Below are positions 45,866-58,585 of a DNA stretch of 64,000 bases, one piece after another; within the stretch, counting starts at the first letter, position 1, and the number at the start of each line of letters is the position of its first letter. The DNA comes from a virus, in the IMG/VR virus record IMGVR_UViG_3300034073_005389, positions 297,491-361,490 of that record; one strand, written 5' to 3'. Made by a program: the position numbers and the translations under genes. The notes below the pieces were generated by a model. It saw only the letters and a list, made by a program, of their open reading frames with translations, ran no database searches and was not told the origin of the DNA.

Positions 45866-45902
45866 ATATATACCTCTGTGTGAATGTTTGTTTACAGTAT
45901 GG

Positions 45903-45985
45903 TGCCGCCAACAGGACTTGAACCTGTATGCTCAATGAGCAAAAGATTTTGAATCTTCCGTGTATGCCGATTCCACCATGGCGGC
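45903..45985 (-). tRNA. tRNA-Leu (CAA)
   Basis: Acceptor GCCGCCA/TGGCGGC, anticodon stem GAAGA/TCTTT with loop TTCAAAA, long variable arm TGCTCATTGAGCA, T loop TTCAAGT, discriminator A. Promoter at 46017-46044. Confidence 0.9.
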
Positions 45986-46062: not shown

Positions 46063-46090
46063 TAGGCAGTTTAGACACATGCCCAGGTGT
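46063..46090 (-). promoter_or_regulatory. Class B promoter-like repeat, copy 1
   Basis: Minus strand ACACCTGGGCATGTGTCTAAAC then TGCCTA; the -10 is TCTAAA. Lies 20 nt upstream of the class A box for tRNA-Leu (CAA). Confidence 0.65.
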
Positions 46091-46166
46091 ATCTTACTAT
46101 AATCACCATGCTACCAAATGTCAACTCTCAAGTATTTTATAAATATATAGGCTGTCAATGGCAAGA

Positions 46167-46388
46167 TTAGATTTCCACCATTGCCAAACGCACATTGGTA
46201 AACGTATACGGAACACCATCCGGCGTCTTATCAGGAAGATAGGAAAGCAGCTTCCTAGCCGCTTCATCCCTATTAGGAGAAGTACGAATACACTCAAGCA
46301 TCAGTCGATACAAGGGTTCATCATTACCCAGCCAAAGACACACATTCCAAGCGTTGTAGTTCTTATGCCCGTTATACTTCTTAGACAT
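46167..46388 (-). CDS. Conserved phage protein 'YNGHKNYNAWNVCLWL', 73 aa
   Basis: The ATG at 46388 (MSKKYNGHKNYNAWNV). The NGxxNxxxWNVxLWLxND signature marks a small family widespread in phages (DUF7249-like in my memory). Function unknown. Confidence 0.85.
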   Translation of the reverse strand: MSKKYNGHKNYNAWNVCLWLGNDEPLYRLMLECIRTSPNRDEAARKLLSYLPDKTPDGVPYTFTNVRLAMVEI

Positions 46389-46413
46389 TTGTGCCTCCAC
46401 TAGACTTGAGTAG

Positions 46414-46734
46414 TTAGACCCACATTCCTTCGTGGAAAGGAACTACATTTCCATCCTTTTTCCGAAAAAACCATTTGAACTTTCGCTGAAAAAGATCTCC
46501 ACGAGAACCAATAGCCTGATTGATTCTCCTCTTGGTGGTTACACCCCTATAGTTGTTTGTAAGCAACTGAACATCCCCGTTCTTATTCCAAGTCACCACT
46601 GGAGTATTATGGTAAAACAAACCAATGGCATCAGCGGTAATACGAGCAACCCTCGTTGCCTTCTTACCACGAACATTCTTGCTATTCTTGCCATTCAAGA
46701 ACTGTTCCGCCGAAACATAGCTACAAGGAATCAT
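46414..46734 (-). CDS. Hypothetical basic protein, 106 aa
   Basis: Basic, beta-rich: GKKATRVARITADAIGLFYH, NGDVQLLTNNYRGVTTKRRI, FKWFFRKKDGNVVPF. Resembles phage nucleic-acid-binding unknowns. Not recognised. Confidence 0.85.
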   Translation of the reverse strand: MIPCSYVSAEQFLNGKNSKNVRGKKATRVARITADAIGLFYHNTPVVTWNKNGDVQLLTNNYRGVTTKRRINQAIGSRGDLFQRKFKWFFRKKDGNVVPFHEGMWV

Positions 46735-46744
46735 AAATACCTCT

Positions 46745-47014
46745 TCAACTATTAGAGTAATAGGTTACAATAACTGCTTGATATTCACCAGCAGTATTTA
46801 CCACAACTCCAAGTACCGCTCCCATTCCTCCAGGAAAAGAACTTCTCTCATAAGCAATAACATGCTTACGACCATGCATATAAGCATCTTCAGCAGAAGA
46901 AAATAGTTCTGGCAAAACCACAGGTTCTCTAGGAAACGGATTATGAAAACTATAAAAGGGAAGCCCATTAGAATAATGACCCTTTGGATTTAGGTCTAAA
47001 ACCTGAATGTTCAT
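46745..47014 (-). CDS. Hypothetical protein, 89 aa
   Basis: MNIQVLDLNPKGHYSNGLPF then a helix (SSAEDAYMHGRKHVIAYERS) and C-terminal strands (GAVLGVVVNTAGEYQAVIV). Ends four bases before the start of the upstream... gene order is 46745 then 46414. Not recognised. Confidence 0.85.
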   Translation of the reverse strand: MNIQVLDLNPKGHYSNGLPFYSFHNPFPREPVVLPELFSSAEDAYMHGRKHVIAYERSSFPGGMGAVLGVVVNTAGEYQAVIVTYYSNS

Positions 47015-47044
47015 TGTAAACCTCTTATAAGAAAACTTCTTGAT

Positions 47045-47198
47045 TATAAGATTAGGTATTTCAGAATAAGCCCCTGGCTACTTCCACTACAGAAGCGCGG
47101 AATCGAACCGCACGCAGTTTCTAGTTTCGTGCACAAAACTATACTTCTGCTTATTCAGATAAGTTAGCTACTCTTACCTTGAAATACCTAATCTTATA
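47045..47198 (-). ncRNA. tRNA-like RNA enclosed in a perfect 19-bp inverted repeat
   Basis: TATAAGATTAGGTATTTCA (47045-47063) is perfectly repeated, inverted, at 47180-47198. A further GAATAAG/CTTATTC pair lies just inside. The centre (47090-47149, minus strand) has an acceptor-like helix CAGAAGT/GCTTCTG, a hairpin TAGTTT/AAACTA and a canonical T arm GCGG-TTCGATT-CCGC, but no D arm and no standard anticodon loop. Class B promoter just upstream at 47210. No CCA follows. Confidence 0.6.
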
Positions 47199-47209
47199 AA
47201 CAAAAATAT

Positions 47210-47237
47210 TAGGCAGTTTATACACATGCCCAGGTGT
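47210..47237 (-). promoter_or_regulatory. Class B promoter-like repeat, copy 2
   Basis: Minus strand ACACCTGGGCATGTGTATAAAC then TGCCTA; -10 TATAAA. Drives the tRNA-like RNA at 47045-47198. Confidence 0.7.
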
Positions 47238-47271
47238 CAACATGATTGACTCCTTCATTCCAGAAACTATT

Positions 47272-47361
47272 TTACCACTTATACAAACACATAACAAAAA
47301 CAATACCACCCGAAACAAACCAAGAGCCAACCATAACCAAAAACCCAGTTTGTGCCGACAT
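47272..47361 (-). CDS. Tiny membrane protein, 29 aa
   Basis: AGAGG five bases before ATG at 47361. Single hydrophobic helix (FLVMVGSWFVSGGIVFVMCL) with a short basic end (YKW). Class B repeat lies 39 nt upstream. Could be a regulatory or toxic micropeptide. Confidence 0.6.
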   Translation of the reverse strand: MSAQTGFLVMVGSWFVSGGIVFVMCLYKW

Positions 47362-47399
47362 ACTAACCTCTATAGTTATGTGATTTGTTGAATACAAAA

Positions 47400-47432
47400 A
47401 GGCAGTTTATACACATACCCAGGTGTATAAAC
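47400..47432 (-). promoter_or_regulatory. Class B promoter-like repeat, copy 3, with palindrome
   Basis: Minus strand ACACCTGGGTATGTGTATAAAC. The copy is part of a 10-bp perfect palindrome, GTTTATACAC-N8-GTGTATAAAC (47405-47432), unlike the others, so a TATAAA is present on both strands. Precedes the 29-aa gene. Confidence 0.7.
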
Positions 47433-47437
47433 TACGC

Positions 47438-47620
47438 TCAGTCTTCGATCCCGCCTTTGCGGAAGGCTTGGAAGACTTTACCAATGAAATAAGCGGGGAT
47501 GCAGATGAGCTTGGGGGGATTATGCGCCTCGGGTCCGGCGAGAACCAAGATTTCGTATTCGTCAGTCTCCGTGTTGTATCCAACAAGAACGTCATCGTTC
47601 AGAACGAGTTTGTTTTTCAT
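47438..47620 (-). CDS. Hypothetical protein, 60 aa
   Basis: MKNKLVLNDDVLVGYNTETD, then AGPEAHNPPKLICIPAYFIG and a basic helix. AAAGGATAG before ATG. Beta-rich start. Not recognised. Preceded by a long structured leader. Confidence 0.8.
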   Translation of the reverse strand: MKNKLVLNDDVLVGYNTETDEYEILVLAGPEAHNPPKLICIPAYFIGKVFQAFRKGGIED

Positions 47621-47631
47621 GTGCTATCCTT

Positions 47632-47730
47632 TCAGAGTGAACTTTGAACCGCCATGTTTAGAGCAACAGAACAATCCATTCAGGAGTAACTTTGCACTAG
47701 ACACTTTGCCGCATTACGAATGATCCTCAT
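47632..47730 (-). other. Two tiny leader ORFs (16 and 15 codons)
   Basis: ATG at 47730 with GGAGG upstream encodes 16 residues (MRIIRNAAKCLVQSYS). Its TGA is directly followed by ATGG at 47679, encoding 15 residues that end at 47632, just before the 47438 gene. Possible leader peptides; no conservation check possible here. Confidence 0.35.
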
Positions 47731-47760
47731 CACAGCCTCCTTGTAGAATCACACACATTT

Positions 47761-47914
47761 GTGTATTATAATAAACCAACAAGCCGAGAGACTAAATAAA
47801 AATATGTCTCTCTTTCTTGCTGCAACAAGCAAACGATTATAGCTTATCTACTTGCAGGTAAATAAACCTTATCGTTTCTTTATAATCACTTGTTGGCTTA
47901 TTGTAATACACAAG
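47761..47914 (-). ncRNA. Long structured leader or small RNA
   Basis: The ends TTGTGTATTATAATAAACCAACAAG and its inverted partner at about 47890-47914 pair over roughly 25 positions, the differences giving G-U pairs. Inside are GAGAGAC/GTCTCTC and AAACGAT/ATCGTTT stems. Transcribed from the class B repeat at 47912-47939 into the 47438 gene. Confidence 0.55.
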
Positions 47915-47939
47915 GCAGTTTATACACTTGCCTAGGTGT
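47912..47939 (-). promoter_or_regulatory. Class B promoter-like repeat, copy 4
   Basis: Minus strand ACACCTAGGCAAGTGTATAAAC then TGCCTT; -10 TATAAA. Leads into the structured leader at 47761-47914. Confidence 0.7.
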
Positions 47940-47970
47940 TTGGGTTATTTGGTAAAAATAAGTGGGGCAT

Positions 47971-48036
47971 TTGGTAAAAATAGGATTTGCACCTATTTCT
48001 CCCTATCCAGGGCGAGTTAGCTATACTCCTTTACCA
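47971..48036 (-). ncRNA. Degenerate tRNA-like element
   Basis: Outer helix TGGTAAA/TTTACCA, a GAGT/ACTC hairpin, a CCC/GGG arm with a 6-nt loop, and a T-arm-like ATAGG-TGCAAAT-CCTAT. The anticodon arm is not standard and the T loop has TGCAAAT instead of TTCAAAT. Downstream of class B copy 5. A tRNA relic or a structural mimic. Confidence 0.45.
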
Positions 48037-48037
48037 C

Positions 48038-48170
48038 TATCCCCGGTCCTATTAGATTGATAGGTAATCTCACTAATAGGTATTAGGTAGTTTAGACACT
48101 TGCCTAGGTGTGTATGGCTATTCTCTGAAAGGCTCCCAGGTTACTATCCTCGGTCCTATTAGATTGACTA
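48038..48170. repeat. Direct repeat CTATCC(C/T)CGGTCCTATTAG
   Basis: Two near-identical copies of a roughly 24-bp sequence, at 48038 and about 48145, each followed by an inverted CTAATAGG or CTAAGAGG half that can form a hairpin. Each copy lies between two class B RNA units, so they may be terminators or processing sites. Confidence 0.55.
48084..48111 (-). promoter_or_regulatory. Class B promoter-like repeat, copy 5
   Basis: Minus strand ACACCTAGGCAAGTGTCTAAAC then TACCTA; -10 TCTAAA. Upstream of the tRNA-like element at 47971-48036. Confidence 0.65.
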
Positions 48171-48185
48171 AGAGGTAATAAAAAT

Positions 48186-48285
48186 GGCAACCATCCAAAC
48201 ATCTTTATCCACGGTTGCCATCACCGGATAAAGAAATAGCAACCATCTCAACATACTTTACCCACGGTTGCCATCACCGAGTAAA
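48186..48285 (-). ncRNA. Tandem H-type pseudoknot RNA
   Basis: Two units of about 52 nt. Read on the minus strand, unit 1 (48285-48238) is UUUACUC-GGUGAU-GGCAACC-GU-GGGUAAA, then about 12 nt, then GGUUGCU. Unit 2 (48232-48186) is UUUAUCC-GGUGAU-GGCAACC-GU-GGAUAAA, then 11 nt, then GGUUGCC. The helices interleave (a, b, a', b'), forming pseudoknots. One pair changes U-A to C-G, and others change to G-U only on this strand, supporting a real minus-strand RNA. Class B promoter at 48324-48351. No ORF. Confidence 0.75.
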
Positions 48286-48323
48286 GCTGGAACGGTTTCA
48301 GGTAAATCCGCCAACCAAAACTA

Positions 48324-48351
48324 TTAGGCAGTTTATCCACTTGCCCAGGTG
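48324..48351 (-). promoter_or_regulatory. Class B promoter-like repeat, copy 6
   Basis: Minus strand ACACCTGGGCAAGTGGATAAAC then TGCCTA; -10 GATAAA. About 40 nt upstream of the pseudoknot RNA. Confidence 0.7.
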
Positions 48352-48357
48352 TATTCC

Positions 48358-48528
48358 TCACGGCAAGAAATACCTTCCATCCACCGCATCAACCTTATCC
48401 AGCATATCCAGAATCTTGTTCTTCTCCTCGCCTTCCGACAATCCTCGAACCACCAACATCAGATTGTCCCAGGCATCCTGATCAATGCCGTATTCATCAT
48501 CCAAAAGAGACTCAATGAAGTTGAACAT
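48358..48528 (-). CDS. Small acidic helical protein, 56 aa
   Basis: The ATG at 48528 (MFNFIESLLDDEYGIDQD) has GGAGGTAAG upstream. Acidic helices, ends VDGRYFLP. Not recognised. The pseudoknot promoter follows its stop. Confidence 0.8.
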   Translation of the reverse strand: MFNFIESLLDDEYGIDQDAWDNLMLVVRGLSEGEEKNKILDMLDKVDAVDGRYFLP

Positions 48529-48565
48529 TGTGCTTACCTCCAATCCAACCCAACCTTGTCCCCTA

Positions 48566-48593
48566 CCTACAATCTCCCAAGTTTACCGATGGG
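48566..48593 (-). promoter_or_regulatory. Class A promoter for the 48358 gene
   Basis: Box CCCATCGGTAAAC, 9-nt spacer, -10 TGTAGG then TAGGGG. Confidence 0.75.
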
Positions 48594-48605
48594 AACCCCC
48601 ACTTA

Positions 48606-48636
48606 TTGCCAACAAAGCCGAAACCTTGTTGGCAAT
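48606..48636 (-). terminator. Hairpin after the 48641 gene
   Basis: ATTGCCAACAAGG pairs with CTTTGTTGGCAAT on the minus strand. Sits between the stop at 48641 and the promoter box at 48581-48593, but the T tract is weak. Confidence 0.65.
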
Positions 48637-48640
48637 CCTG

Positions 48641-48796
48641 TCAATCCTCTACCCGCTCCAAATAACTCTCCTCCTCATTAGAGGTTTTTTTGTAACCCGT
48701 AGCCACCACAATCTCTCCCGAACTGTCCTCCGAGAATACCGCATCAGGACAAACTTGCAACACCAGTTGCACCATTTCCGCAAAAGTGATCTTCAT
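48641..48796 (-). CDS. Small acidic protein, 51 aa
   Basis: MKITFAEMVQLVLQVCPDAV, then SEDSSGEIVVATGYKKTSNE. The TGATG overlap with the upstream gene couples translation. Function unknown. Confidence 0.75.
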   Translation of the reverse strand: MKITFAEMVQLVLQVCPDAVFSEDSSGEIVVATGYKKTSNEEESYLERVED

Positions 48797-48951
48797 CACC
48801 ACCCAACCTTGTCAGGAGATACCACCAAACAAAAATACGGATTCCCAGGTTTCATCAATCGCAACTTGTTTCCCAGCTTTCCCATAAAACAATACACGCC
48901 AGCATAACCAGAAACACTTGCATACACCAAATCACCAATCCGCAAGTTCAT
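48796..48951 (-). CDS. Hypothetical SH3-like protein, 51 aa
   Basis: The ATG at 48951 (MNLRIGDLVYASVSGYAG) with GGAGGC upstream. Short beta barrel pattern with GDLVYA, GYAGVYCFMG and LRLMKPG. Not recognised. Confidence 0.75.
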   Translation of the reverse strand: MNLRIGDLVYASVSGYAGVYCFMGKLGNKLRLMKPGNPYFCLVVSPDKVGW

Positions 48952-48990
48952 TATGCCTCCTGTTTTATCTCCAACCAACCGCTCCCCCCA

Positions 48991-49018
48991 CCTCTAATCA
49001 CCCAAGTTGACCGATGGG
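48991..49018 (-). promoter_or_regulatory. Class A promoter for the 48796/48641 genes
   Basis: Box CCCATCGGTCAAC, 9-nt spacer, -10 TAGAGG then TGGGGG. Confidence 0.8.
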
Positions 49019-49067
49019 AGCCGTTTGCACTTACCAGGAAGCCCATTACAGGCTTCCCAGTAAATAA

Positions 49068-49382
49068 TCACTTTTGAAGCGCCTTCTTTTCCATATTCTC
49101 CGTGGCAACTTCCACCAGTTGCCGAACATACTTATACATCATCACTCTGGCTTTATTCAAATGATTTCCCGTCAACTTCTTACCACTCATTAGCCATTTG
49201 GCATAATAAGTGCCAAGCCTGGCATCAGGTCCATTGAAGCCTTTGCCATTCGTGTGCAATGTGGTATTGCTGGTTTGCTCATCCATGGTTTGACGAGCAA
49301 AAATAGCCAATACCGCCCTCTCCACCGCATAATCATTGCAAAGCAACAAATAACGAATGTAATCCGGACTATTCTTTTCCAT
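49068..49382 (-). CDS. Conserved phage protein, 104 aa
   Basis: The ATG at 49382 (MEKNSPDYIRYLLLCND) with TGGAGG upstream. TNTTLHTNGKGFNGPDARLGTYY-like core, then WLMSGKKLTGNHLNKARVMM, a signature I have seen in unknown phage proteins. Helical, basic C-terminus. A GGGAAGCC/GGCTTCCC-type hairpin at about 49038-49061 terminates it. Confidence 0.8.
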   Translation of the reverse strand: MEKNSPDYIRYLLLCNDYAVERAVLAIFARQTMDEQTSNTTLHTNGKGFNGPDARLGTYYAKWLMSGKKLTGNHLNKARVMMYKYVRQLVEVATENMEKKALQK

Positions 49383-49416
49383 CTTTTCCTCCAAAAAAAG
49401 ATTTTCAAGAACTTGG

Positions 49417-49459
49417 ACGGAGGGAAAGGAATCGAACCTTTCCTACAACCATTCTCCGT
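49417..49459 (-). ncRNA. tRNA minihelix-like element (acceptor plus T arm only)
   Basis: ACGGAG/CTCCGT helix joined through about ten bases to GGAAAGG-TTCGATT-CCTTTCC. The T loop is canonical, but D and anticodon arms are missing. 43 nt. Lies between two genes on the same strand and has no own promoter; a processed tail or an RNA decoy is possible. Confidence 0.5.
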
Positions 49460-49468
49460 ATTCTCTAA

Positions 49469-49801
49469 CTACTTGCGCGAAATACCACCATTCTGCCCAC
49501 GACTCGCCACAAACTTATTGCTCCCAGCAAGATAATCAGCAATCCGCTTGCTCAATCGACCATAATCCTCATACCGATTGCTAATCTTAGCAAACACCTG
49601 CCCAATCAGCAATGGCTTCACCACCTTTGCGTTATTGTTCTCATCAAAAATACTATTCAAAGCATTCTCAATCAGAATATCCTCCGAAAGATTGACATTC
49701 TCCCATTCCACCAAATCCCCCATAAACTTATTCAGCGTAGCCTCATGATCAATCGCACCCGCGTCATTACGAATAACATAGGAAACAAAATCAATCTTCA
49801 T
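49469..49801 (-). CDS. RGxxGG-family small protein, 110 aa
   Basis: MKIDFVSYVIRNDAGAIDHE, then helices, ending FVASRGQNGGISRK. Clearly homologous to 50578-50925 (same start pattern and SRGQNGG) and more distantly to 3901 and 4316. Possible nucleic-acid-binding regulator. Confidence 0.85.
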   Translation of the reverse strand: MKIDFVSYVIRNDAGAIDHEATLNKFMGDLVEWENVNLSEDILIENALNSIFDENNNAKVVKPLLIGQVFAKISNRYEDYGRLSKRIADYLAGSNKFVASRGQNGGISRK

Positions 49802-49839
49802 AATCTTTTTTTCCTTTCAGCAACCAACCATTCCCCCCA

Positions 49840-49867
49840 CCTCTAATCACTCAGGTTGACCGATGGG
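49840..49867 (-). promoter_or_regulatory. Class A promoter for the 49469 gene
   Basis: Box CCCATCGGTCAAC, 9-nt spacer, -10 TAGAGG then TGGGGGG. Confidence 0.8.
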
Positions 49868-50300
49868 CTAACCCATACATACTTATCTGCCTATTTACCC
49901 ATTCACACATACATACATTTTTTCTGCCCGCTTACGCACACCCGTATACCCACCAACCATAAACATACTCTCCCATTCATACACACCCCTACTTACACTC
50001 CCCCAATAACCTATAAACTATAATAAATACATTCCACCCAAACTAACTACCCAATATCTCAATACCTACACCCCCACACACATCTATATGCAAAATTTAT
50101 TCTACCTATACCTTATACAATACCACTATTCCTTATTTCCATAACTTACATTTCTCCCGCCCCCATTCTTTATTTCCCTAAATCTGCACCCCATTTCTTT
50201 CTTATTTCTACTTATTTATAAAATAGATTATGTAGTTTAGTGTATATGTGTATTGATGTGTCTATGTTTGTGTGCAGTATAATAAATAAAAAAAGTTTGT
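49868..50300. other. Gene-free region, C-depleted on the minus strand
   Basis: From about 49870 to 50220 the plus strand contains almost no G while C, A and T are abundant. No ORF, no clear hairpins. From 50220 to 50300 the bias ends in a GT/TG-rich stretch. The G-rich RNA or strand would be the minus strand. Marks the change from AT-rich to GC-rich sequence. Confidence 0.7.
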
Positions 50301-50375
50301 TTTTGGCTAGGGCAAAAACCATTGTGTGCAGTTGTTTGAATCTATGCCTAAATGTGTTTTGCGCCCTAGCCAAAA
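50301..50375 (-). terminator. Long inverted repeat downstream of stacked terminators
   Basis: TTTTGGCTAGGGC at 50301-50313 pairs with GCCCTAGCCAAAA at 50363-50375 across a 49-nt loop. T tracts on both sides. Confidence 0.55.
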
Positions 50376-50460
50376 AGCATTTTTTTTAGGGCTAGGGCTT
50401 ATGCCACACCCAATTGCCAACCGAATGCATTTATCCAAAAACACAAACACAAAAAAAAAA

Positions 50461-50487
50461 GCCAATGGCGGGATTTCCGCCATTGGC
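50461..50487 (-). terminator. Intrinsic terminator, second of a stack
   Basis: GCCAATGGCGG/CCGCCATTGGC followed on the minus strand by ten T residues. Backs up the terminator at 50531-50554. Confidence 0.9.
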
Positions 50488-50530
50488 TTTCACACACGCA
50501 AAAAAAGACAAAAAAAAAGACAAAAAAAAA

Positions 50531-50554
50531 GCCCCAGCGCATTGGCGCTGGGGC
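50531..50554 (-). terminator. Strong intrinsic terminator of the 50578 gene
   Basis: GCCCCAGCGC/GCGCTGGGGC followed on the minus strand by nine T residues. Confidence 0.95.
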
Positions 50555-50577
50555 TTTGGGAGACGGTCAGTCAGGTT

Positions 50578-50925
50578 TCACCGAGCGATGCGCTCGACTC
50601 CGCCATTCTGACCACGCTGGGCGTGGAATCGCGTCTTGTCTCCCAAGTAATCCGCGATCTTCTTAGAGAATTCCCCGAACTGAGTGAACGAAACACCCTT
50701 TCCGAGAAGGTACTGGAACGCTTCGCCCACCACCAGGGGCTTGGGCATGCGTTTGTTATCGTGACGGTCAAAGACCGAGTTGACGGCTTCGCGGATGAGT
50801 TCGAACTCATCCGCCGAAGCGGACTCGAAAGCGATGAGGTCTTGCATGAACTTGTGGAGCGTTTGCTCGTGATCGATGGAACCATCATCCGAGCGAACCA
50901 CGTAGCTAGCGAGATTGATCTCCAT
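50578..50925 (-). CDS. RGxxGG-family small protein, 115 aa
   Basis: MEINLASYVVRSDDGSIDHE, then TLHKFMQDLIAFESA and FHAQRGQNGGVERIAR. Nearest paralogue is 49469. GGAGG before ATG. The GC-rich coding contrasts with the AT-rich copies at 3901 and 4316, so the copies have adopted local base composition. Behind four tandem boxes. Possible regulator (inference). Confidence 0.9.
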   Translation of the reverse strand: MEINLASYVVRSDDGSIDHEQTLHKFMQDLIAFESASADEFELIREAVNSVFDRHDNKRMPKPLVVGEAFQYLLGKGVSFTQFGEFSKKIADYLGDKTRFHAQRGQNGGVERIAR

Positions 50926-50970
50926 GACTGTATCCTCCGAAGGGCGTTGCGGCGTGATTGCCTGCCCTCA

Positions 50971-50998
50971 ATATTGGTTCTGCAGGTTGACCGATGGG
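50971..50998 (-). promoter_or_regulatory. Class A promoter, proximal of four boxes
   Basis: Box CCCATCGGTCAAC, 9-nt spacer, -10 CAATAT then TGAGGG. Serves the 50578 gene. Confidence 0.75.
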
Positions 50999-51019
50999 TG
51001 CAACCGGGACAAAAAAACC

Positions 51020-51047
51020 TTTACTCAGGGGCATGTTGACCGATGGG
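51020..51047 (-). promoter_or_regulatory. Class A box, second of four
   Basis: Exact box. The -10 position reads AGTAAA with no TGAG, so it may be a weak promoter or a bare factor-binding site. Confidence 0.6.
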
Positions 51048-51074
51048 TACAATCCATCTAAAAAACCAAAACCC

Positions 51075-51102
51075 CCGTTGAATAGCAGAGGTTGACCGAT
51101 GG
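51075..51102 (-). promoter_or_regulatory. Class A box, third of four
   Basis: Exact box. The -10 position reads TCAACG, a poor match. Followed by GGGG then T-rich sequence. Confidence 0.5.
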
Positions 51103-51121
51103 GCGCTTTGACGCGCAGGTA

Positions 51122-51149
51122 CATTGTAGATTAGAGGTTGACCGATGGG
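51122..51149 (-). promoter_or_regulatory. Class A box, fourth of four
   Basis: Exact box. -10 ACAATG, or TACAAT one base shifted. Confidence 0.55.
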
Positions 51150-51176
51150 AACCCGATTGCACTTGGCAAAAAAAAA

Positions 51177-51200
51177 TCCCAGGTGCCTAAGCACCTGGGA
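51177..51200 (-). terminator. Intrinsic terminator of the 51223 gene
   Basis: TCCCAGGTGC/GCACCTGGGA followed by nine T residues on the minus strand. Confidence 0.95.
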
Positions 51201-51222
51201 TAAGATAAGACTCACTTTAGTA

Positions 51223-51396
51223 CTAGCTGGTTCGCACCTGGTAACCCACCGCCTTCTCCAGGCTCTTGTCGGTTTGGCTCAGGTTCAGCTTGAGCGCTTC
51301 CTTACGAGCCGTAAGCAAACACTCGTACACCTTCACCACCGACTCAGACAAGGAGTTGCTTTCCAGGTCCAGCTGCAGACGAACGATCTTGTACAT
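51223..51396 (-). CDS. Hypothetical cassette protein, 57 aa
   Basis: The ATG at 51396 (MYKIVRLQLDLESNSLSE) with AGGAGG upstream. Helical, basic end (QTDKSLEKAVGYQVRTS). Own promoter, 5' hairpin (TCAGG/CCTGA) and terminator. Not recognised. Confidence 0.85.
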   Translation of the reverse strand: MYKIVRLQLDLESNSLSESVVKVYECLLTARKEALKLNLSQTDKSLEKAVGYQVRTS

Positions 51397-51425
51397 AGAG
51401 CCTCCTATCAGGAATGACCCTGACA

Positions 51426-51453
51426 CAGTAGTATTGCCTGGTTGACCGATGGG
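51426..51453 (-). promoter_or_regulatory. Class A promoter for the 51223 cassette
   Basis: Exact box, 9-nt spacer, -10 CTACTG then TGTCAGG, which opens the 5' hairpin. Confidence 0.75.
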
Positions 51454-51469
51454 TGCGATCCATTAAAAC

Positions 51470-51497
51470 TTGCTCAGGTACAGATGTACCTGAGCAA
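51470..51497 (-). terminator. Terminator of the 51519 cassette
   Basis: TTGCTCAGGTAC/GTACCTGAGCAA followed by TTTTAATGG on the minus strand. Confidence 0.9.
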
Positions 51498-51518
51498 GTT
51501 AGGCTAAGCTACTACCTG

Positions 51519-52079
51519 TCAGCCGTGAGAGAAGCTGACCTTGGTGGGTCGGGTTGCCATCAGCTTGAAGTCGCTGGTGAACGTACGCTCCTTCATCACA
51601 GGTCCAGAACGCTTACCCATCACCCTGGCGATTGCCTCGTCACGGTCCACTTCCATCGTGATGTGATTAGTGGAGCCGTCTTTGTTGGTGATCTTGGAGT
51701 CAATCACCCCTCGACAACCTGGCGGTCCAGCATCTAGCTTGCGATCCACCCACCTGGACGCTTCCCCACTCATGTAGAAACCCATCTCCTCCAACACTCC
51801 ACCCTTCGCATCGTAGATGCAGGCGTTGATGGGCTTCTGCACCTTCTCACGCTGGCGTGTAGCCTTGGCTTCCTGCTTCTTCTCAGGAACCCTGAGAAGG
51901 TCTTGCAAGACCGCCTCTTGCACCAGCTTGAGCGCTGGCGTCGGATACAGCTCTCCCTTCTCCAGGCGAGCCAGAATCGAGACAGCCTCGGGAATCCCCG
52001 AAAGGAACTCCCTTTGAGCCTGCAAGAAAGCGGCAGCGGAAACCTTACCAGCGGACTGACGCAGGAACTTCTTGTGCAT
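51519..52079 (-). CDS. Hypothetical cassette protein, 186 aa
   Basis: The ATG at 52079 (MHKKFLRQSAGKVSAAAF), GGAGG upstream. Basic/acidic helices (KKQEAKATRQREKVQ), then a beta domain with MGFYMSGEASRWVDRKLDA. C-terminal part basic. Not recognised. Confidence 0.85.
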   Translation of the reverse strand: MHKKFLRQSAGKVSAAAFLQAQREFLSGIPEAVSILARLEKGELYPTPALKLVQEAVLQDLLRVPEKKQEAKATRQREKVQKPINACIYDAKGGVLEEMGFYMSGEASRWVDRKLDAGPPGCRGVIDSKITNKDGSTNHITMEVDRDEAIARVMGKRSGPVMKERTFTSDFKLMATRPTKVSFSHG

Positions 52080-52111
52080 AGGAACCTCCAAACAAAGCCG
52101 TGATTGGCTCA

Positions 52112-52139
52112 CCTATGTTTGTGCAAGTTGACCGATGGG
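52112..52139 (-). promoter_or_regulatory. Class A promoter for the 51519 cassette
   Basis: Exact box, 9-nt spacer, -10 CATAGG then TGAGCC, followed by AGCC/GGCT hairpin. Confidence 0.8.
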
Positions 52140-52156
52140 TTCAAGCCACTGAAAAC

Positions 52157-52184
52157 GCTCTTGAGACCATGTGGTCTCAAGAGC
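52157..52184 (-). terminator. Terminator of the 52190 cassette
   Basis: GCTCTTGAGACC/GGTCTCAAGAGC, then GTTTTC on the minus strand. Confidence 0.9.
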
Positions 52185-52189
52185 CTAGA

Positions 52190-52387
52190 CTAGAAGCTCA
52201 AAGGCGATCCATCCTCGTGTTCAGACTCCTCCGGCAACATGTCAATGAATGGGGCTGCCGTCTCCCAATCATCCTCACAGGCACCTCCCCTGAGGTTGAG
52301 CGTGTGAATACGCTCAAAATCAGGAATATAGCTGTCCATCTCATCTTCCAACATGGGGACGGATCGAGGAACGTATTGCTTTCCCAT
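52190..52387 (-). CDS. Small acidic cassette protein, 65 aa
   Basis: The ATG at 52387 (MGKQYVPRSVPMLEDEMD), GGAGG upstream; the longer frame is rejected. Acidic, Pro-rich, ends EDGSPLSF. Not recognised. Confidence 0.8.
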   Translation of the reverse strand: MGKQYVPRSVPMLEDEMDSYIPDFERIHTLNLRGGACEDDWETAAPFIDMLPEESEHEDGSPLSF

Positions 52388-52416
52388 AACTACCTCCATG
52401 AACCATGATTGGTTCA

Positions 52417-52444
52417 CAATAGGTTTAGCAAGTTGACCGATGGG
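52417..52444 (-). promoter_or_regulatory. Class A promoter for the 52190 cassette
   Basis: Exact box, 9-nt spacer, -10 CTATTG then TGAACC. The 5' hairpin is TGAACC/GGTTCA, a compensated change relative to GAGCC/GGCTC elsewhere. Confidence 0.8.
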
Positions 52445-52471
52445 CTACCTGGATTGCACTCAACAAAAAAA

Positions 52472-52508
52472 AACGCCCTAGTACTCGTGTGTGAGTACTA
52501 GAGCGTTT
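52472..52508 (-). terminator. Terminator of the 52529 cassette
   Basis: AACGC(C)CTAGTACTC pairs with GAGTACTAGAGCGTT on the other arm, followed by eight T residues on the minus strand. Confidence 0.9.
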
Positions 52509-52528
52509 AGGTGTGTGAGACTGTTTAG

Positions 52529-53110
52529 TTACACGCCGAGAGCAGCAAGCCGCTCATCGATGTTATTGATGCGTTCTTGTTCCCACGCTTCCGCACCAGG
52601 ATCATCTTGGTTGTGAGCGTGTAGCAGTGCTTCCACTGCCACTCGACGCTGAGCAATCAAGTTGTCAATCTCTCGCTGCCTGGGATTGGGCATACCTTTG
52701 ACGTAGCCCTGCAAGGTAGCTTGAGCGGTTGGTGCTGGAGACTTGCCGTATCGCTCTTGTTGGATCAAGTACCTGGCTCGTTGCCTGGCACGATCCAACT
52801 GCAAGCTGTACAGCTCACCAGTGTATGCGCCCGTGAACTTCTCAATGGCTCTGATGATTTCTTTCTTTGTCTCCGCTTCGGACTTTTCCTTGTTTGCCAG
52901 ATTGCACTCATGGATGAACGTTTTAGCGTCCTCCAAGGTTGCAACCTTGGTCGGCATGGGCGGAGGCGTTTGAGCAGGCTTGACAGGCTTGCTTACCACC
53001 TTTCGCTCCTCGGGAATGGTCCGGATTTGGATTGTCTGACGCTTCTCTTGCAACTTGGCAAGAGACGCAGCATACAACGCAATCATTTCGCGGAGATCGA
53101 CTTTGTTCAT
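52529..53110 (-). CDS. Coiled-coil cassette protein, 193 aa
   Basis: The ATG at 53110 (MNKVDLREMIALYAASLA). Helical head, Pro-rich linker (KPVKPAQTPPPMPTKVA), then long charged helices (RARQRARYLIQQERYG). Possibly elongated adaptor. Not recognised. Confidence 0.85.
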   Translation of the reverse strand: MNKVDLREMIALYAASLAKLQEKRQTIQIRTIPEERKVVSKPVKPAQTPPPMPTKVATLEDAKTFIHECNLANKEKSEAETKKEIIRAIEKFTGAYTGELYSLQLDRARQRARYLIQQERYGKSPAPTAQATLQGYVKGMPNPRQREIDNLIAQRRVAVEALLHAHNQDDPGAEAWEQERINNIDERLAALGV

Positions 53111-53145
53111 GTTTACTCCAATCCACTGACAAGTGCCAGTAGACA

Positions 53146-53173
53146 CCTATGGTTGTGCTGGTTGACCGATGGG
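53146..53173 (-). promoter_or_regulatory. Class A promoter for the 52529 cassette
   Basis: Exact box, 9-nt spacer, -10 CATAGG. 5' hairpin CTACTG/CAGTGG follows. Confidence 0.8.
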
Positions 53174-53193
53174 TGTGAGCCGCTGAAACAAAA

Positions 53194-53219
53194 TGCTCAG
53201 GTCTATATAGACCTGAGCA
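53194..53219 (-). terminator. Terminator of the 53232 cassette
   Basis: TGCTCAGGTCT/AGACCTGAGCA, then TTTTG on the minus strand. Confidence 0.9.
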
Positions 53220-53231
53220 CCTGTCAACTCG

Positions 53232-53480
53232 TCACCTCTCGTCAGTGAGAACCATCACGAACTCCTTGTCAAGCAAGATCTTGAGCGCATCATCCTGTTC
53301 GGATGGATGCAGCTGTACTTCCAAGGGGAAGAATCGGCTCCAATCATAGGCTCGAACCCGGTATTCTTCCGGCTCACCTGCACAGTCCCAAGTAGGACCT
53401 TTGGCTGGAACATAGTCCAGCTCCAGGTCTACGGTAATGGTTTTGTGGTTGCGTACGATCTGCATCTGAATGTCTTTCAT
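53232..53480 (-). CDS. Hypothetical cassette protein, 82 aa
   Basis: Beta-rich: IQMQIVRNHKTITVDLELDY, then WSRFFPLEVQLHPSEQDDA. GGAGG before ATG. Not recognised. Confidence 0.85.
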   Translation of the reverse strand: MKDIQMQIVRNHKTITVDLELDYVPAKGPTWDCAGEPEEYRVRAYDWSRFFPLEVQLHPSEQDDALKILLDKEFVMVLTDER

Positions 53481-53496
53481 AAAACCTCCTGGGTCA

Positions 53497-53524
53497 ATGG
53501 TGGTGTAGTAAGTTGACCGATGGG
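53497..53524 (-). promoter_or_regulatory. Class A promoter for the 53232 cassette
   Basis: Exact box, but -10 CACCAT is weak; no TGAG. CACCATTGACCC follows. Confidence 0.6.
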
Positions 53525-53541
53525 TGCATACAACTGAAAAC

Positions 53542-53569
53542 GCTCATGGAACCATATGGATCCATGAGC
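53542..53569 (-). terminator. Terminator of the 53575 cassette
   Basis: GCTCATGGA/TCCATGAGC with inner CCATATGG, then GTTTTC on the minus strand. Confidence 0.9.
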
Positions 53570-53574
53570 ATAAA

Positions 53575-53820
53575 CTAGATGATGTTGAGCCTGCTCCAAA
53601 ACCTTTGGCTTTCTTTCCCTACCTCACACAGAGGCAAAGGAGCGACTTCATTTTGAGCAAGCATGCGCCTGACTTTACGCCCTTCCTGGTCCTCCTTGAA
53701 ACCAGGAAGGCAAATAAAGTCTCTGGAAACGGCTTCAGAGAATGCGTCCTCCAACGCAATCTCGAACTGTTTCTCAGACTCGAACTTATAGCCACTGATA
53801 GTGTAAATGCACTGTGCCAT
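53575..53820 (-). CDS. Hypothetical cassette protein, 81 aa
   Basis: The ATG at 53820 (MAQCIYTISGYKFESEKQ), GGAGG upstream. Helical, acidic start, basic middle (KEDQEGRKVRRMLAQNE). Not recognised. Confidence 0.85.
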   Translation of the reverse strand: MAQCIYTISGYKFESEKQFEIALEDAFSEAVSRDFICLPGFKEDQEGRKVRRMLAQNEVAPLPLCEVGKESQRFWSRLNII

Positions 53821-53836
53821 AAATAGCACCTCCGTA

Positions 53837-53864
53837 ACCTACTTACTGCTTGTTGACCGATGGG
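53837..53864 (-). promoter_or_regulatory. Class A promoter for the 53575 cassette
   Basis: Exact box, -10 GTAGGT, short leader with GGAGG close behind. No 5' hairpin. Confidence 0.65.
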
Positions 53865-53891
53865 TTACCTGGATTGAACTTAACAAAAAAA

Positions 53892-53933
53892 CCCAGGCTT
53901 ACATGGACTCATTAGAATCCACATAAACCTGGG
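53892..53933 (-). terminator. Terminator of the 53940 cassette
   Basis: CCCAGG(T/C)TTA.../...ACCTGGG stem, containing a GGACTC/GAATCC inner stem, then TTTTTTTG on the minus strand. Confidence 0.85.
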
Positions 53934-53939
53934 CTCTCA

Positions 53940-54167
53940 CTACCTCACCAACACGAAGGTGTTGGGTTGACCCAGCCAGCTGTTGAGCTGGGTCGCCATC
54001 TGCCTTGCATCTTGGTATGTGTACTCTTGTACACGAGTTATGCCGTTGCGAGTGTCTCGCAACTTCCAACCTTTCTCCTCGAACAATGCCAGGAAACAAT
54101 CCTGGCAAATCGGCTTGCAGTTGAACTTGCATGTGCTTGCGCTTTTATCACACATCTGGCAGTTCAT
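53940..54167 (-). CDS. Zinc-finger-like cassette protein, 75 aa
   Basis: The ATG at 54167 (MNCQMCDKSASTCKFNCK), then PICQDC. Six Cys in CxxC/CxxxC pairs at the N-terminus can bind two zinc ions; helical C-terminal half with Thr/Gln/Leu. Not recognised. AAAGGCATT before ATG. Confidence 0.85.
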   Translation of the reverse strand: MNCQMCDKSASTCKFNCKPICQDCFLALFEEKGWKLRDTRNGITRVQEYTYQDARQMATQLNSWLGQPNTFVLVR

Positions 54168-54203
54168 AATGCCTTTCCATCTACTCTGTTTGGTGAGTAG
54201 ACA

Positions 54204-54231
54204 CCTATACCTATCTATGTTGACCGATGGG
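54204..54231 (-). promoter_or_regulatory. Class A promoter for the 53940 cassette
   Basis: Exact box, 9-nt spacer, -10 TATAGG. 5' hairpin TCTACTC/GAGTAGA. Confidence 0.85.
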
Positions 54232-54247
54232 TGCACACAACTGAAAC

Positions 54248-54275
54248 GTTGTGCAGGAGTTGCCTCCTGCACAAC
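54248..54275 (-). terminator. Terminator of the 54281 cassette
   Basis: GTTGTGCAGGAG/CTCCTGCACAAC, then GTTTCAG on the minus strand. Confidence 0.85.
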
Positions 54276-54280
54276 CTTTC

Positions 54281-54739
54281 TCAGTAGTCGTCGCGACCCG
54301 ACCACCGATCCTGTTCCATGTACTGCATGTACCTCTCCTCCTCGTTCCAGTGCTCGTAGGGTCGCATCATACGAGCGTTGTAGTCTCTGAGTACCGACTC
54401 CAGCGCCTCCCGCTTGGCGTGGAGCCTGTTGATGTAGGCGTCTCGCTGCGCCTCCATCTCTTCGTTCACCTGCTCTCGTAGGTGATCGCGCTCCTCCTTG
54501 GTCAAGTCGCGACCAAGAGCAGACTCACGACTACAGAACTCCTCATACGCACGCTCTTGGAAGAGGTCATCCTCCATCTCACGTGCGTGGTCGTCCCAGT
54601 GGTAACGCTCGATCTGAGCATTGGTATCATTCCACTGAGAGGCGAGACCCTTGATGATCTCCTCCTTTGCCTGAGCGATCAGGCGCTCGTGGTCCGTAGC
54701 GTTTTCGGGGCACTCGATGTTGATCACGTATCCACGCAT
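54281..54739 (-). CDS. Coiled-coil cassette protein, RPYEH family, 152 aa
   Basis: The ATG at 54739 (MRGYVINIECPENATDHE) with TGGAGG upstream. Long charged helix, then RPYEHWNEEERYMQYME and GRDDY at the end, the same architecture as 45425-45865. Shows that the cassette region shares genes with the AT-rich region. Function unknown. Confidence 0.85.
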   Translation of the reverse strand: MRGYVINIECPENATDHERLIAQAKEEIIKGLASQWNDTNAQIERYHWDDHAREMEDDLFQERAYEEFCSRESALGRDLTKEERDHLREQVNEEMEAQRDAYINRLHAKREALESVLRDYNARMMRPYEHWNEEERYMQYMEQDRWSGRDDY

Positions 54740-54770
54740 ATCAGCCTCCAGACAAGCCTTGATTGGCTCA

Positions 54771-54798
54771 CTTATGTTTTTGCATGTTGACCGATGGG
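54771..54798 (-). promoter_or_regulatory. Class A promoter for the 54281 cassette
   Basis: Exact box, -10 CATAAG then TGAGCC. 5' hairpin AGCC/GGCT. Confidence 0.85.
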
Positions 54799-54818
54799 TA
54801 CAGCCCACTGAAAAAAAA

Positions 54819-54843
54819 CCGTGTCAGGAAATTCCTGACACGG
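54819..54843 (-). terminator. Terminator of the 54868 cassette
   Basis: CCGTGTCAGGAA/TTCCTGACACGG followed by eight T residues on the minus strand. Confidence 0.95.
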
Positions 54844-54867
54844 CTAGGTATGTACGCTAGTTGGCGA

Positions 54868-55074
54868 TCACTTGACCTTGATCACCAGACCGTTTTGCAC
54901 GGTCACCTCTGCGTACCAGGTATGGGGCTGCGGGTAGTGCGGTCCACCTACCGCAGTAGTCCCATTCTCTGGCGGGTTGCCGAGACCAGGTGCGTAAATA
55001 TGCACCGGTTTCCCGGCAGCCACATCATCCTTGAGTTGCTTCTTGGTCTTGTAGTTCTTGGTGGTGTAGAACAC
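54868..55074 (-). CDS. Conserved protein with GTG start, 68 aa
   Basis: GGAGGGTTCA precedes GTG at 55074. MFYTTKNYKTKKQLKDDVAA, then VGGPHYPQPHTWYAEV matches a small family common in phages and plasmids, sometimes next to DNA-metabolism genes. Beta-rich C-terminal half. Function unknown. Confidence 0.85.
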   Translation of the reverse strand: MFYTTKNYKTKKQLKDDVAAGKPVHIYAPGLGNPPENGTTAVGGPHYPQPHTWYAEVTVQNGLVIKVK

Positions 55075-55107
55075 TGAACCCTCCTAGACAAAGCCGTGAT
55101 TGGCTCA

Positions 55108-55135
55108 ATGGTAGTTGTGCAGGTTGACCGATGGG
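55108..55135 (-). promoter_or_regulatory. Class A promoter for the 54868 cassette
   Basis: Exact box, -10 TACCAT then TGAGCC; 5' hairpin AGCC/GGCT. Confidence 0.75.
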
Positions 55136-55152
55136 TACGGACCACTGAAACA

Positions 55153-55178
55153 TGCTTGGAAGCATTCGCTTCCAAGCA
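55153..55178 (-). terminator. Terminator of the 55203 cassette
   Basis: TGCTTGGAAGC/GCTTCCAAGCA, then GTTTCAG on the minus strand. Confidence 0.9.
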
Positions 55179-55202
55179 CGTTTTGTTGAGAGTGTTGTTA
55201 GA

Positions 55203-55493
55203 TTACTTCTTGTTGCTCTCCTTGTAGAGTACGATCAGCTGTTCGTATACCTGGCTGTGATGGTACAATCCTTCCTGCCATTCCAGCAGGAGTTTTTTCA
55301 CCCTTTCCTGCTGAATCTCGTTGAGAGCGTTGTACAGGTACAGACCTGGCAGTTCCCCATCCCACAGCTGGGTGAGAAGCCTCTCCTCTTCCATGACCAG
55401 AGCCTTGATCTTCTGGTCGTACGCCAACTGCTTGCGCAGCTTGGCGATACGGTTTTTGATCTGGTGTACGGTGTTGCGGTTGCGGTTGCTCAT
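55203..55493 (-). CDS. Coiled-coil cassette protein, 96 aa
   Basis: The ATG at 55493 (MSNRNRNTVHQIKNRIAK). Almost all helix with heptads (KLRKQLAYDQKIKALVMEE) and a later TQLWDGELPGLYLY break. CGGAG upstream. Not recognised. Confidence 0.85.
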   Translation of the reverse strand: MSNRNRNTVHQIKNRIAKLRKQLAYDQKIKALVMEEERLLTQLWDGELPGLYLYNALNEIQQERVKKLLLEWQEGLYHHSQVYEQLIVLYKESNKK

Positions 55494-55534
55494 GTGAGAC
55501 TCCGAGAAAGCCGTGTGTGGAGTTGTACGGCTCA

Positions 55535-55562
55535 CATACAGTTATGCGGGTTGACCGATGGG
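55535..55562 (-). promoter_or_regulatory. Class A promoter for the 55203 cassette
   Basis: Exact box, -10 TGTATG then TGAGCCG; a longer 5' stem AGCCGT...ACGGCT follows. Confidence 0.8.
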
Positions 55563-55590
55563 TTAACTTGTTTGCATTTAACAAAAAAAA

Positions 55591-55618
55591 CCCTTGGCTT
55601 GCTTGCGCAAACCAAGGG
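55591..55618 (-). terminator. Terminator of the 55624 cassette
   Basis: CCCTTGG(TTTGCG)...CCAAGGG stem followed by eight T residues on the minus strand. Confidence 0.9.
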
Positions 55619-55623
55619 CTTTA

Positions 55624-55827
55624 TCACTGCAACGAAAGCAAGAACATCTCTCCTTTCTGAGTGAAAGACTTGAGAATCATACCGCCAGCCATGGAGTAAA
55701 CTCCAAGGTCTGTGCCAGGATGAACTTTGCTGTTGAACTTTGCCACACGATCTCCATTGGGAGCCATGTAGGCAATGGTCAGCCCTTGCTCCAGGGCTTT
55801 CTCGAACTCAACGTGGCTAATCTGCAT
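55624..55827 (-). CDS. Hypothetical cassette protein, 67 aa
   Basis: The ATG at 55827 (MQISHVEFEKALEQGLTI), AGGAGG upstream; the long upstream frame reads through the promoter and is rejected. Helix, then beta strands with MAPNGDRVAKFNSK. Not recognised. Confidence 0.8.
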   Translation of the reverse strand: MQISHVEFEKALEQGLTIAYMAPNGDRVAKFNSKVHPGTDLGVYSMAGGMILKSFTQKGEMFLLSLQ

Positions 55828-55840
55828 AGCTACCTCCTCG

Positions 55841-55868
55841 TATTGAAGTATGTATATTGACCGATGGG
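55841..55868 (-). promoter_or_regulatory. Class A promoter for the 55624 cassette
   Basis: Box CCCATCGGTCAAT, -10 TCAATA. Short leader without hairpin. Confidence 0.65.
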
Positions 55869-55885
55869 TGCAAACAACTAAAACT

Positions 55886-55913
55886 GCAAGCACCTGATTG
55901 CTCAGGTGCTTGC
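55886..55913 (-). terminator. Terminator of the 55919 cassette
   Basis: GCAAGCACCTG/CAGGTGCTTGC, then AGTTTTAG. Differs from 56244-56271 by a compensated base pair. Confidence 0.9.
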
Positions 55914-55918
55914 AAGAG

Positions 55919-56164
55919 TCAGTACATGCTGATGCTGTTCTCAATCTCTTGGTCTTGGCTCAACCGAGCCGCCTCCTTCCAGCGGCGCTGAACCATCCAA
56001 CGGGTGACCAGCCCGTTGTACTTGAATGCTTTTTCGCACGCTTCTACGGTTTTCCGCCATGCCTCTGCCGCCTTTTGGTTACCGGTGGCGGCAGCGAACT
56101 GCCCCTCCACCGAAGCCAGGATGGAGAGAGAGATGAAAGGCGTGCTGGATCGCATGATCTTCAT
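55919..56164 (-). CDS. Hypothetical helical cassette protein, 81 aa
   Basis: Starts MKIMRSSTPFISLSILASVE. Ala-rich helices (GNQKAAEAWRKTVEACEKAF). AGGAG before ATG. May oligomerise. Not recognised. Confidence 0.85.
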   Translation of the reverse strand: MKIMRSSTPFISLSILASVEGQFAAATGNQKAAEAWRKTVEACEKAFKYNGLVTRWMVQRRWKEAARLSQDQEIENSISMY

Positions 56165-56198
56165 GTTTATCTCCTAGAGCCATTGGTTGATTGGCTCA

Positions 56199-56226
56199 CT
56201 TGTAGTTGTGCAGGTTGACCGATGGG
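56199..56226 (-). promoter_or_regulatory. Class A promoter for the 55919 cassette
   Basis: Exact box, -10 TACAAG then TGAGCC; hairpin GAGCC/GGCTC. Confidence 0.85.
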
Positions 56227-56243
56227 TACATACCACTAAAACT

Positions 56244-56271
56244 GCAAGTACCTGATTGCTCAGGTACTTGC
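56244..56271 (-). terminator. Terminator of the 56277 cassette
   Basis: GCAAGTACCTG/CAGGTACTTGC, then AGTTTTAG on the minus strand. Confidence 0.9.
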
Positions 56272-56276
56272 GTGTT

Positions 56277-56540
56277 TCATGAGTTCACGTATTCCTCCTC
56301 TGCCTTATTGATGATGCGGTGCGCCAAGTTGTCAATCTCATCCATCTCTGCCTCGGTGGCTTGGTCGAGCGCACCCGCAGACACAAGCTCCATCACCTTC
56401 AGATGAAGGTTGCCGATGTTATGGCAACCATTCACGTAGTTGTATTCTCCTCGGATCTTTCCGAAATGGTTCTTGTTACAAGCAAACCCGTTGTTACGGA
56501 GATGCTTGATGACCAGGGGGATCAGCCTACCCAGTTGCAT
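56277..56540 (-). CDS. Hypothetical helical cassette protein, 87 aa
   Basis: The ATG at 56540 (MQLGRLIPLVIKHLRNNG), AAAGGC upstream. Helix, short Cys/His loop (ACNKNHFG...NGCHNIGN), acidic helix at the end. Not recognised. Confidence 0.8.
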   Translation of the reverse strand: MQLGRLIPLVIKHLRNNGFACNKNHFGKIRGEYNYVNGCHNIGNLHLKVMELVSAGALDQATEAEMDEIDNLAHRIINKAEEEYVNS

Positions 56541-56569
56541 AACTTGCCTTTCCGAGCCATAGTGGCTCA

Positions 56570-56597
56570 CTTATGTTTTTGGAAGTTGACCGATGGG
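56570..56597 (-). promoter_or_regulatory. Class A promoter for the 56277 cassette
   Basis: Exact box, -10 CATAAG then TGAGCC; hairpin GAGCC/GGCTC with 5-nt loop. Confidence 0.85.
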
Positions 56598-56612
56598 TAC
56601 AACCAACTGAAA

Positions 56613-56638
56613 CATGCTCAGGATTGCTCCTAAGCATG
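56613..56638 (-). terminator. Terminator of the 56645 cassette
   Basis: CATGCTCAGG/CCTAAGCATG (one mismatch), then TTTCAG on the minus strand. Confidence 0.8.
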
Positions 56639-56644
56639 CTTGTC

Positions 56645-56909: not shown

Positions 56910-56910
56910 A

Positions 56911-56938
56911 ACTATGTTTGTACATGTTGACCGATGGG
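56911..56938 (-). promoter_or_regulatory. Class A promoter for the 56820/56645 genes
   Basis: Exact box, 9-nt spacer, -10 CATAGT, directly followed by TATGGAG. Confidence 0.8.
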
Positions 56939-56954
56939 TGCGAACCATTGAAAC

Positions 56955-58584: not shown

Positions 58585-58585
58585 A

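Follow-up and report, generated by a model that had tools for sequence, protein, structure and literature searches.

Organization of the window

The window, which is the whole stretch of DNA analysed, forms the end (the final 64 kb) of a virus record of 361,490 bases and carries phage-type genes and 11 tRNAs. The analysis drew on the window, on searches and on selected stretches. From position 48528 downward on the minus strand, a 56-aa ORF ends in a stop codon, which is followed after 5 nt by a pseudoknot and then by the tandem units, another pseudoknot and a tRNA-like RNA. Next in order are a pseudoknot, a multibranched RNA, small ORFs, a pseudoknot, a small ORF, a pseudoknot and a long-hairpin RNA, and the string ends with more ORFs, a pseudoknot and a tRNA-Leu. 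The features are as follows.

48358..48528, minus: small ORF of 56 aa from an ATG with a Shine-Dalgarno sequence (listed as 61 aa from a TTG); its stop codon precedes a pseudoknot
48326..48352, minus: 27-nt pseudoknot, 5 nt past the TGA of ORF 48358-48528; the tandem units follow after 39 nt
48234..48286, minus: 5' tandem unit (53 nt), with helices S1 (48279-48286/48256-48263) and S2 (48266-48274/48236-48244)
48182..48233, minus: 3' tandem unit (52 nt), with helices S1 (48226-48233/48203-48210) and S2 (48213-48221/48184-48192)
48085..48111, minus: 27-nt pseudoknot, with the tandem units on one side and the tRNA-like RNA on the other
47972..48035, minus: tRNA-like RNA whose anticodon arm is shortened; it scores 25.8 bits with the tRNA model, below the 29-bit cut-off
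47913..47939, minus: 27-nt pseudoknot, with the tRNA-like RNA on one side and the multibranched RNA on the other
47759..47913, minus: multibranched RNA without an Rfam match, closed by a long helix and branching into three arms; 47759-47905 folds with z=-7.0
47400..47426, minus: 27-nt pseudoknot, 11 nt past the TGA of the 60-aa ORF 47438-47620
47211..47237, minus: 27-nt pseudoknot, preceding the long-hairpin RNA
47037..47206, minus: RNA closed by a long helix whose 34-nt arms are 85% complementary; the stem inside resembles the T arm of a tRNA, without a clear D arm
46064..46090, minus: 27-nt pseudoknot that precedes tRNA-Leu (45900-45985) and lies 5 nt past the end of a consensus sigma-70 promoter

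All six copies of the 27-nt pseudoknot lie on the minus strand within 2.3 kb (46064-48352), and nowhere else in the 361 kb does the element occur at a convincing score. In this arrangement, the tandem units appear as a single RNA item with a boundary element on either side. A family search of ORF 48358-48528 found no family.

Elsewhere in the window, the eleven tRNAs include four tRNA-Leu(UAA) and one tRNA-Leu(CAA) within 64 kb, which is odd for a phage set. A group I intron match of 52.1 bits (cut-off 50) lies on the minus strand at 630-824, and the region 28416-29654 is low-complexity coding sequence with repeated short frames of the YGYGNGYG type, likely from a repeat protein family. Over the last 16 kb (48001-64000), GC content rises from ~35% to 55-59%, possibly reflecting a different origin or an assembly join, and this part also holds a second repeat family around ACCGATGGG.

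Pairing in the tandem units

The initial annotation had described two units of ~52 nt, each with two interleaved helices, and we found both at 53 and 52 nt. S1 has 8 bp in both units (CUUUAYYC / GRRUAAAG), and S2 has 7 bp that can be extended to 9 bp (AUGGCAACC / GGUUGCYAU). Based on computed pairing, S1 and S2 are interleaved in each unit in the arrangement of an H-type pseudoknot, with loops of 4-6 nt (L1), 2 nt (L2) and 10-11 nt (L3), where L3 is not A-rich.

The two units differ by six substitutions and one indel. Four of the substitutions fall in stems: one pair changes on both sides (C-G to U-A), and two others switch between G-U and G-C. All four are compatible with pairing on the minus strand, where 34/34 pair cells are standard. 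Read from the plus strand, the 5' unit has A-C in place of two of its pairs, which bears out the earlier observation that pairing survives these differences on the minus strand alone. The chance that four random stem substitutions keep all pairs is 0.004-0.05, varying with transition bias, in a comparison that is between two copies only since homologues are absent.

Counting both strands of the 64-kb window (128 kb in all), equally strong pseudoknots number three, two of them on the minus strand and one on the plus. Whole-window shuffles gave an equally strong pseudoknot in 2/6 cases, one each, and shuffles of the 728-nt intergenic stretch in 0/300. When the region was folded without pseudoknots and compared with shuffles, the z-scores were -3.2 on the minus and -2.1 on the plus strand. 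A rough energy estimate places nested alternatives at about the stability of the tandem-unit pseudoknot. As such, S1 and S2 are each supported by the predicted pairing, and because nested folds are energetically close, we only infer that the two helices form at the same time. Considering the interleaved helices and the minus-strand polarity, a structured RNA from the minus strand, as originally suggested, is probable.

Search for relatives of the tandem units

No sequence relatives of the tandem unit were found in named phages or in eleven records carrying related UvrD genes, nor did a model search across 23 records find any. Pattern matches in IMG/VR were not recognisably related and came without a tandem copy, and among 84,980 prokaryote genomes the tandem-unit core was matched once, within apparent coding sequence. 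One UvrD relative is 89% identical and lies on a 36-kb fragment (G001), which by position should end before the tandem-unit region. Relatives of the proteins neighbouring the tandem units were likewise not found. Judging from these searches and from the modelled pairing, the tandem units are best called a putative orphan structured RNA, untranslated, from the minus strand of a large tailed phage.

Tandem units compared with type III antitoxins and DNA repeats

Type III antitoxin RNAs (ToxI, CptI and TenpI) consist of tandem H-type pseudoknot repeats like the tandem units, and the initial annotation had proposed such an antitoxin or a phage mimic of one. Two tandem repeats of 52-53 nt, with the folding computed only, lie within the CptI range; a 45-nt pseudoknot made from two repeats has been described for CptI (PMC4627078). 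However, the tandem units differ from ToxI, CptI and TenpI in their longer repeats and in an L3 that is not A-rich, and the ToxI covariance model (RF02519) had no match there, its only hits in the genome being two sub-threshold matches elsewhere, of 18 and 15 bits (cut-off 50). No toxin gene was found: the ten neighbouring proteins gave no convincing defence match, and none resembles a known defence ribonuclease. A ToxN family search also had no match, but it is uninformative, as 0/14 control genomes matched, and a cognate ribonuclease may still be present. A type III operon has a terminator between the repeats and the toxin gene (PMC5086642), whereas none was found between the repeats and a downstream gene here, with no terminator-like site on the minus strand from 48182 to 47436. 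Since a mimic taken from a host should resemble a host repeat, the absence of a repeat with the tandem-unit sequence from the 84,980 prokaryote genomes, apart from the single match in apparent coding sequence, also counts against a mimic. The antitoxin-mimic proposal is without positive support, and we consider an antitoxin or its mimic highly improbable. A duplicated DNA feature, such as protein-binding inverted repeats or the remnant of a mobile element, would account for the fact that both helices are also inverted repeats at the DNA level. We regard this as distinctly improbable too, given that the differences between units preserve G-U pairs on one strand only, that the minus strand has the better fold z-score and that RNA pseudoknots of the same strand flank the units.

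Structure and covariation of the 27-nt pseudoknot

The 27-nt element is predicted to be an H-type pseudoknot of the form NNNN-CU-NGGYA-N-N'N'N'N'-NUAAAC-UGCCN, in the order P1 (4 bp), loop CU, P2 (5 bp), one nucleotide, P1', loop NUAAAC or similar, and P2'. P2 is either NGGYA/UGCCN or NAGYA/UGCUN. In loose copies of the element both stem strands co-vary (for example AGAC/GTCT, CAAG/CTTG, AATC/GATT and GAG../..CTC). Across 41 distinct sequences, 96.5% of the cells are paired, compared with at most 53% in slid controls, and double-sided changes occur in 7/9 pairs.

Because the descriptor used for the search required pairing, two tests were restricted to positions left free in the search patterns, of which the second was a variant pattern that yielded a second set of at least 120 stretches. 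The outer P2 pair, which lies outside the first pattern, is standard in 35/43 instances versus 12/43 in the neighbouring column, and in the second set it is standard in 83% versus 52% of the control, among the matches listed. The second pattern placed no constraint on the second P1 pair, and in 117/117 of the matches listed this pair is standard, with A-U in 67, U-A in 30, G-C in 13 and C-G in 7 of them. The instances are partly related, and these counts are not independent events. As predicted from these alignments, the 27-nt element is an RNA pseudoknot with strong covariation.

The initial annotation had noted a promoter-like repeat adjacent to the tandem units and on the same strand; the strand assignment was correct, and the supposed promoter is the 27-nt RNA pseudoknot. 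A sigma-70 promoter does not fit the repeat family, where -35 and -10 hexamers at 16-18 nt are not maintained and the TATAAA part varies (TCTAAA, GATAAA, TTTAAA). In one repeat group there is an apparent TTGACA, but its TGA is the stop codon with which the upstream gene ends. A variant of the pseudoknot with an extra hairpin between P2 and P1' was seen at ~6600-6650 of a further locus (L197).

Distribution of the 27-nt pseudoknot

The strict pattern with 20 fixed bases was found in 63 IMG/VR contigs and in 0 contigs of the 84,980 prokaryote genomes of GTDB, and with the exact pattern missing from these genomes the ACAC-type element looks virus-specific. Named carriers are Mycobacterium phage Labelle, Paracoccus phage ParMal1, the cyanophages S-RIM4 and S-H38, the gut phages NatCom_3357 and NatCom_6392, Cellulosimicrobium phage DS1, Moorella phage MTATph1, the Rhizobium phages X2_28B and X3_15 (RHph_X3_15) and Lentibacter phage ICBM2. 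The hosts of the carrier phages are thus very different and include actinobacteria, proteobacteria, cyanobacteria and firmicutes.

In the window and ten annotated phage loci, no Rfam 15 match overlapped the element at E values up to 2-5. No description of it was found in the literature searched, which was mainly openly accessible journal papers. The 27-nt element apparently represents a widespread phage RNA family that is new to Rfam 15 and to this literature.

Position of the 27-nt pseudoknot behind stop codons

In 49 of 62 distinct instances, the end of an upstream ORF lies at most 60 nt from the element. The spacer between stop codon and element is 5-6 nt in 23/62 and at most 11 nt in 39/62, and it is shorter than 5 nt in 0/62; in the second set, 42/117 of the matches listed have a 5-6 nt spacer. 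Among named phages, the spacer is 6 nt in Labelle, ParMal1, NatCom_3357 and NatCom_6392 and 5 nt in Cellulosimicrobium DS1 and Rhizobium RHph_X3_15, where the stop codons of DS1, RHph_X3_15 and NatCom_6392 were identified in the sequence itself and are not annotated gene ends. All three stop codons are found upstream of the element.

On the other side, the start of a tRNA (in most cases tRNA-Asp) follows the element at 3-14 nt in 39/116 second-set instances among the matches listed, compared with a tRNA within 150 nt of 56/3197 ORF ends in the same loci, an enrichment that is large but inflated by lineage sampling. What follows closely in 26/116 of the second-set matches listed (about one fifth) is another gene and not an RNA. 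In NatCom_3357 and NatCom_6392, the DUF2800 RNA (RF02960) starts ~2 nt past the element; this is likewise a phage-associated structured RNA, but a separate structure of 158 positions. At 7403-7540 of another locus (L205), a stop codon is followed by three pseudoknots of the 27-nt type alternating with short putative structured stretches, in a layout like that of the window. In the Cellulosimicrobium phage DS1 locus, a Pistol ribozyme match lies at 96-165, ~330 nt upstream of the 27-nt pseudoknot.

Sigma-70-like promoters occur downstream of the element in 24% of cases versus 3.6% in shuffles, and upstream in 0%. With promoters after the element and not before it, the element appears to be tied to the upstream transcript.

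A proposed boundary element between mRNAs and downstream RNAs

Based on these positions, we propose that the 27-nt element is a boundary mark, with an mRNA (or RNA) upstream of it and another RNA downstream. The downstream tRNA or other RNA would be cut away first, in the case of tRNAs by RNase P, and in our preferred mechanism the tight knot beside the stop codon would then block 3'-to-5' exonucleases. A spacer of 5-6 nt would place the knot where the mRNA enters the ribosome as the stop codon is read, and the knot could therefore stay folded during termination. The tandem units themselves would most likely be a stable folded RNA that resists decay or binds a protein, which is the weakest step of the proposal. 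Taken as a whole, tandem units and 27-nt boundary or decay-block elements combined in one RNA string would be the best explanation of the locus, to which we assign a probability of about 0.5. A broader formulation is put forward tentatively, as its chance appears somewhat below even: the element would be a new cis-acting class of phage RNA, a knot at the shortest stop-codon distance at which it stays folded under the terminating ribosome. It would cap mRNA 3' ends where a tRNA or ncRNA adjoins the mRNA, in tailed phages that infect many hosts, and would punctuate, in the present window, a cluster of new structured RNAs to which the tandem pseudoknot RNA belongs.

The copy at 46064-46090 speaks against a boundary, as it starts 5 nt after the -10 box of a consensus sigma-70 promoter and would occupy a 5' end. 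Within the window, the strongest argument for a 5' role is this promoter directly before the element; in that role, the pseudoknot would protect or define the 5' end of the downstream mRNA, tRNA or ncRNA in the manner of an xrRNA. Such a role would also agree with elements that precede tRNAs and other RNAs and abut the DUF2800 RNA in two gut phages. Against it, the position of the element is fixed relative to the upstream stop codon and its distance to the next gene is variable, new promoters lie between the element and the next gene, and the 5' ends of tRNAs come from RNase P anyway; we therefore judge a 5'-end element to be rather unlikely. Viral xrRNAs and the 27-nt element are alike as small pseudoknots in viral transcripts with a potential to block nucleases, but known xrRNAs belong to RNA viruses and block 5'-to-3' decay, whereas the 27-nt element is found in DNA phages on the 3' side of genes. 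An action on the terminating ribosome, through readthrough, frameshifting, termination efficiency or control of re-initiation, appears unlikely. Recoding pseudoknots have a spacing like the 5-6 nt seen here. However, the frame that extends past the stop codon is not conserved and closes soon or at once, in several contigs another stop follows in frame (TGA CAG TGA), and all three stop codons are used. The double stops and short frames speak against recoding, and we rejected readthrough or frameshifting as the main idea.

Other known RNAs resemble parts of the locus. The preQ1-I riboswitch and other small H-type pseudoknots share with the 27-nt element a short P1, a P2 and an A-rich third loop beside P1, but the element differs from preQ1-I in sequence, is not located upstream of one gene type and has no Rfam match. 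In tmRNA, chains of pseudoknots stand beside a tRNA-like part as they do in the window, but no tmRNA match was found there, and its tRNA-like part forms a complete unit set off by a 27-nt pseudoknot.

If the boundary proposal is true, the 27-nt element would be a compact and portable signal for RNA stability or processing that is common to phages of four bacterial groups, and it would explain how mRNAs stay intact when a tRNA or ncRNA behind them is excised. It also serves as a search handle, as between two copies there is often, as seen in the window, a tRNA or a structured RNA of unknown type. The tandem pseudoknot RNA would then belong to a set of new phage RNAs.
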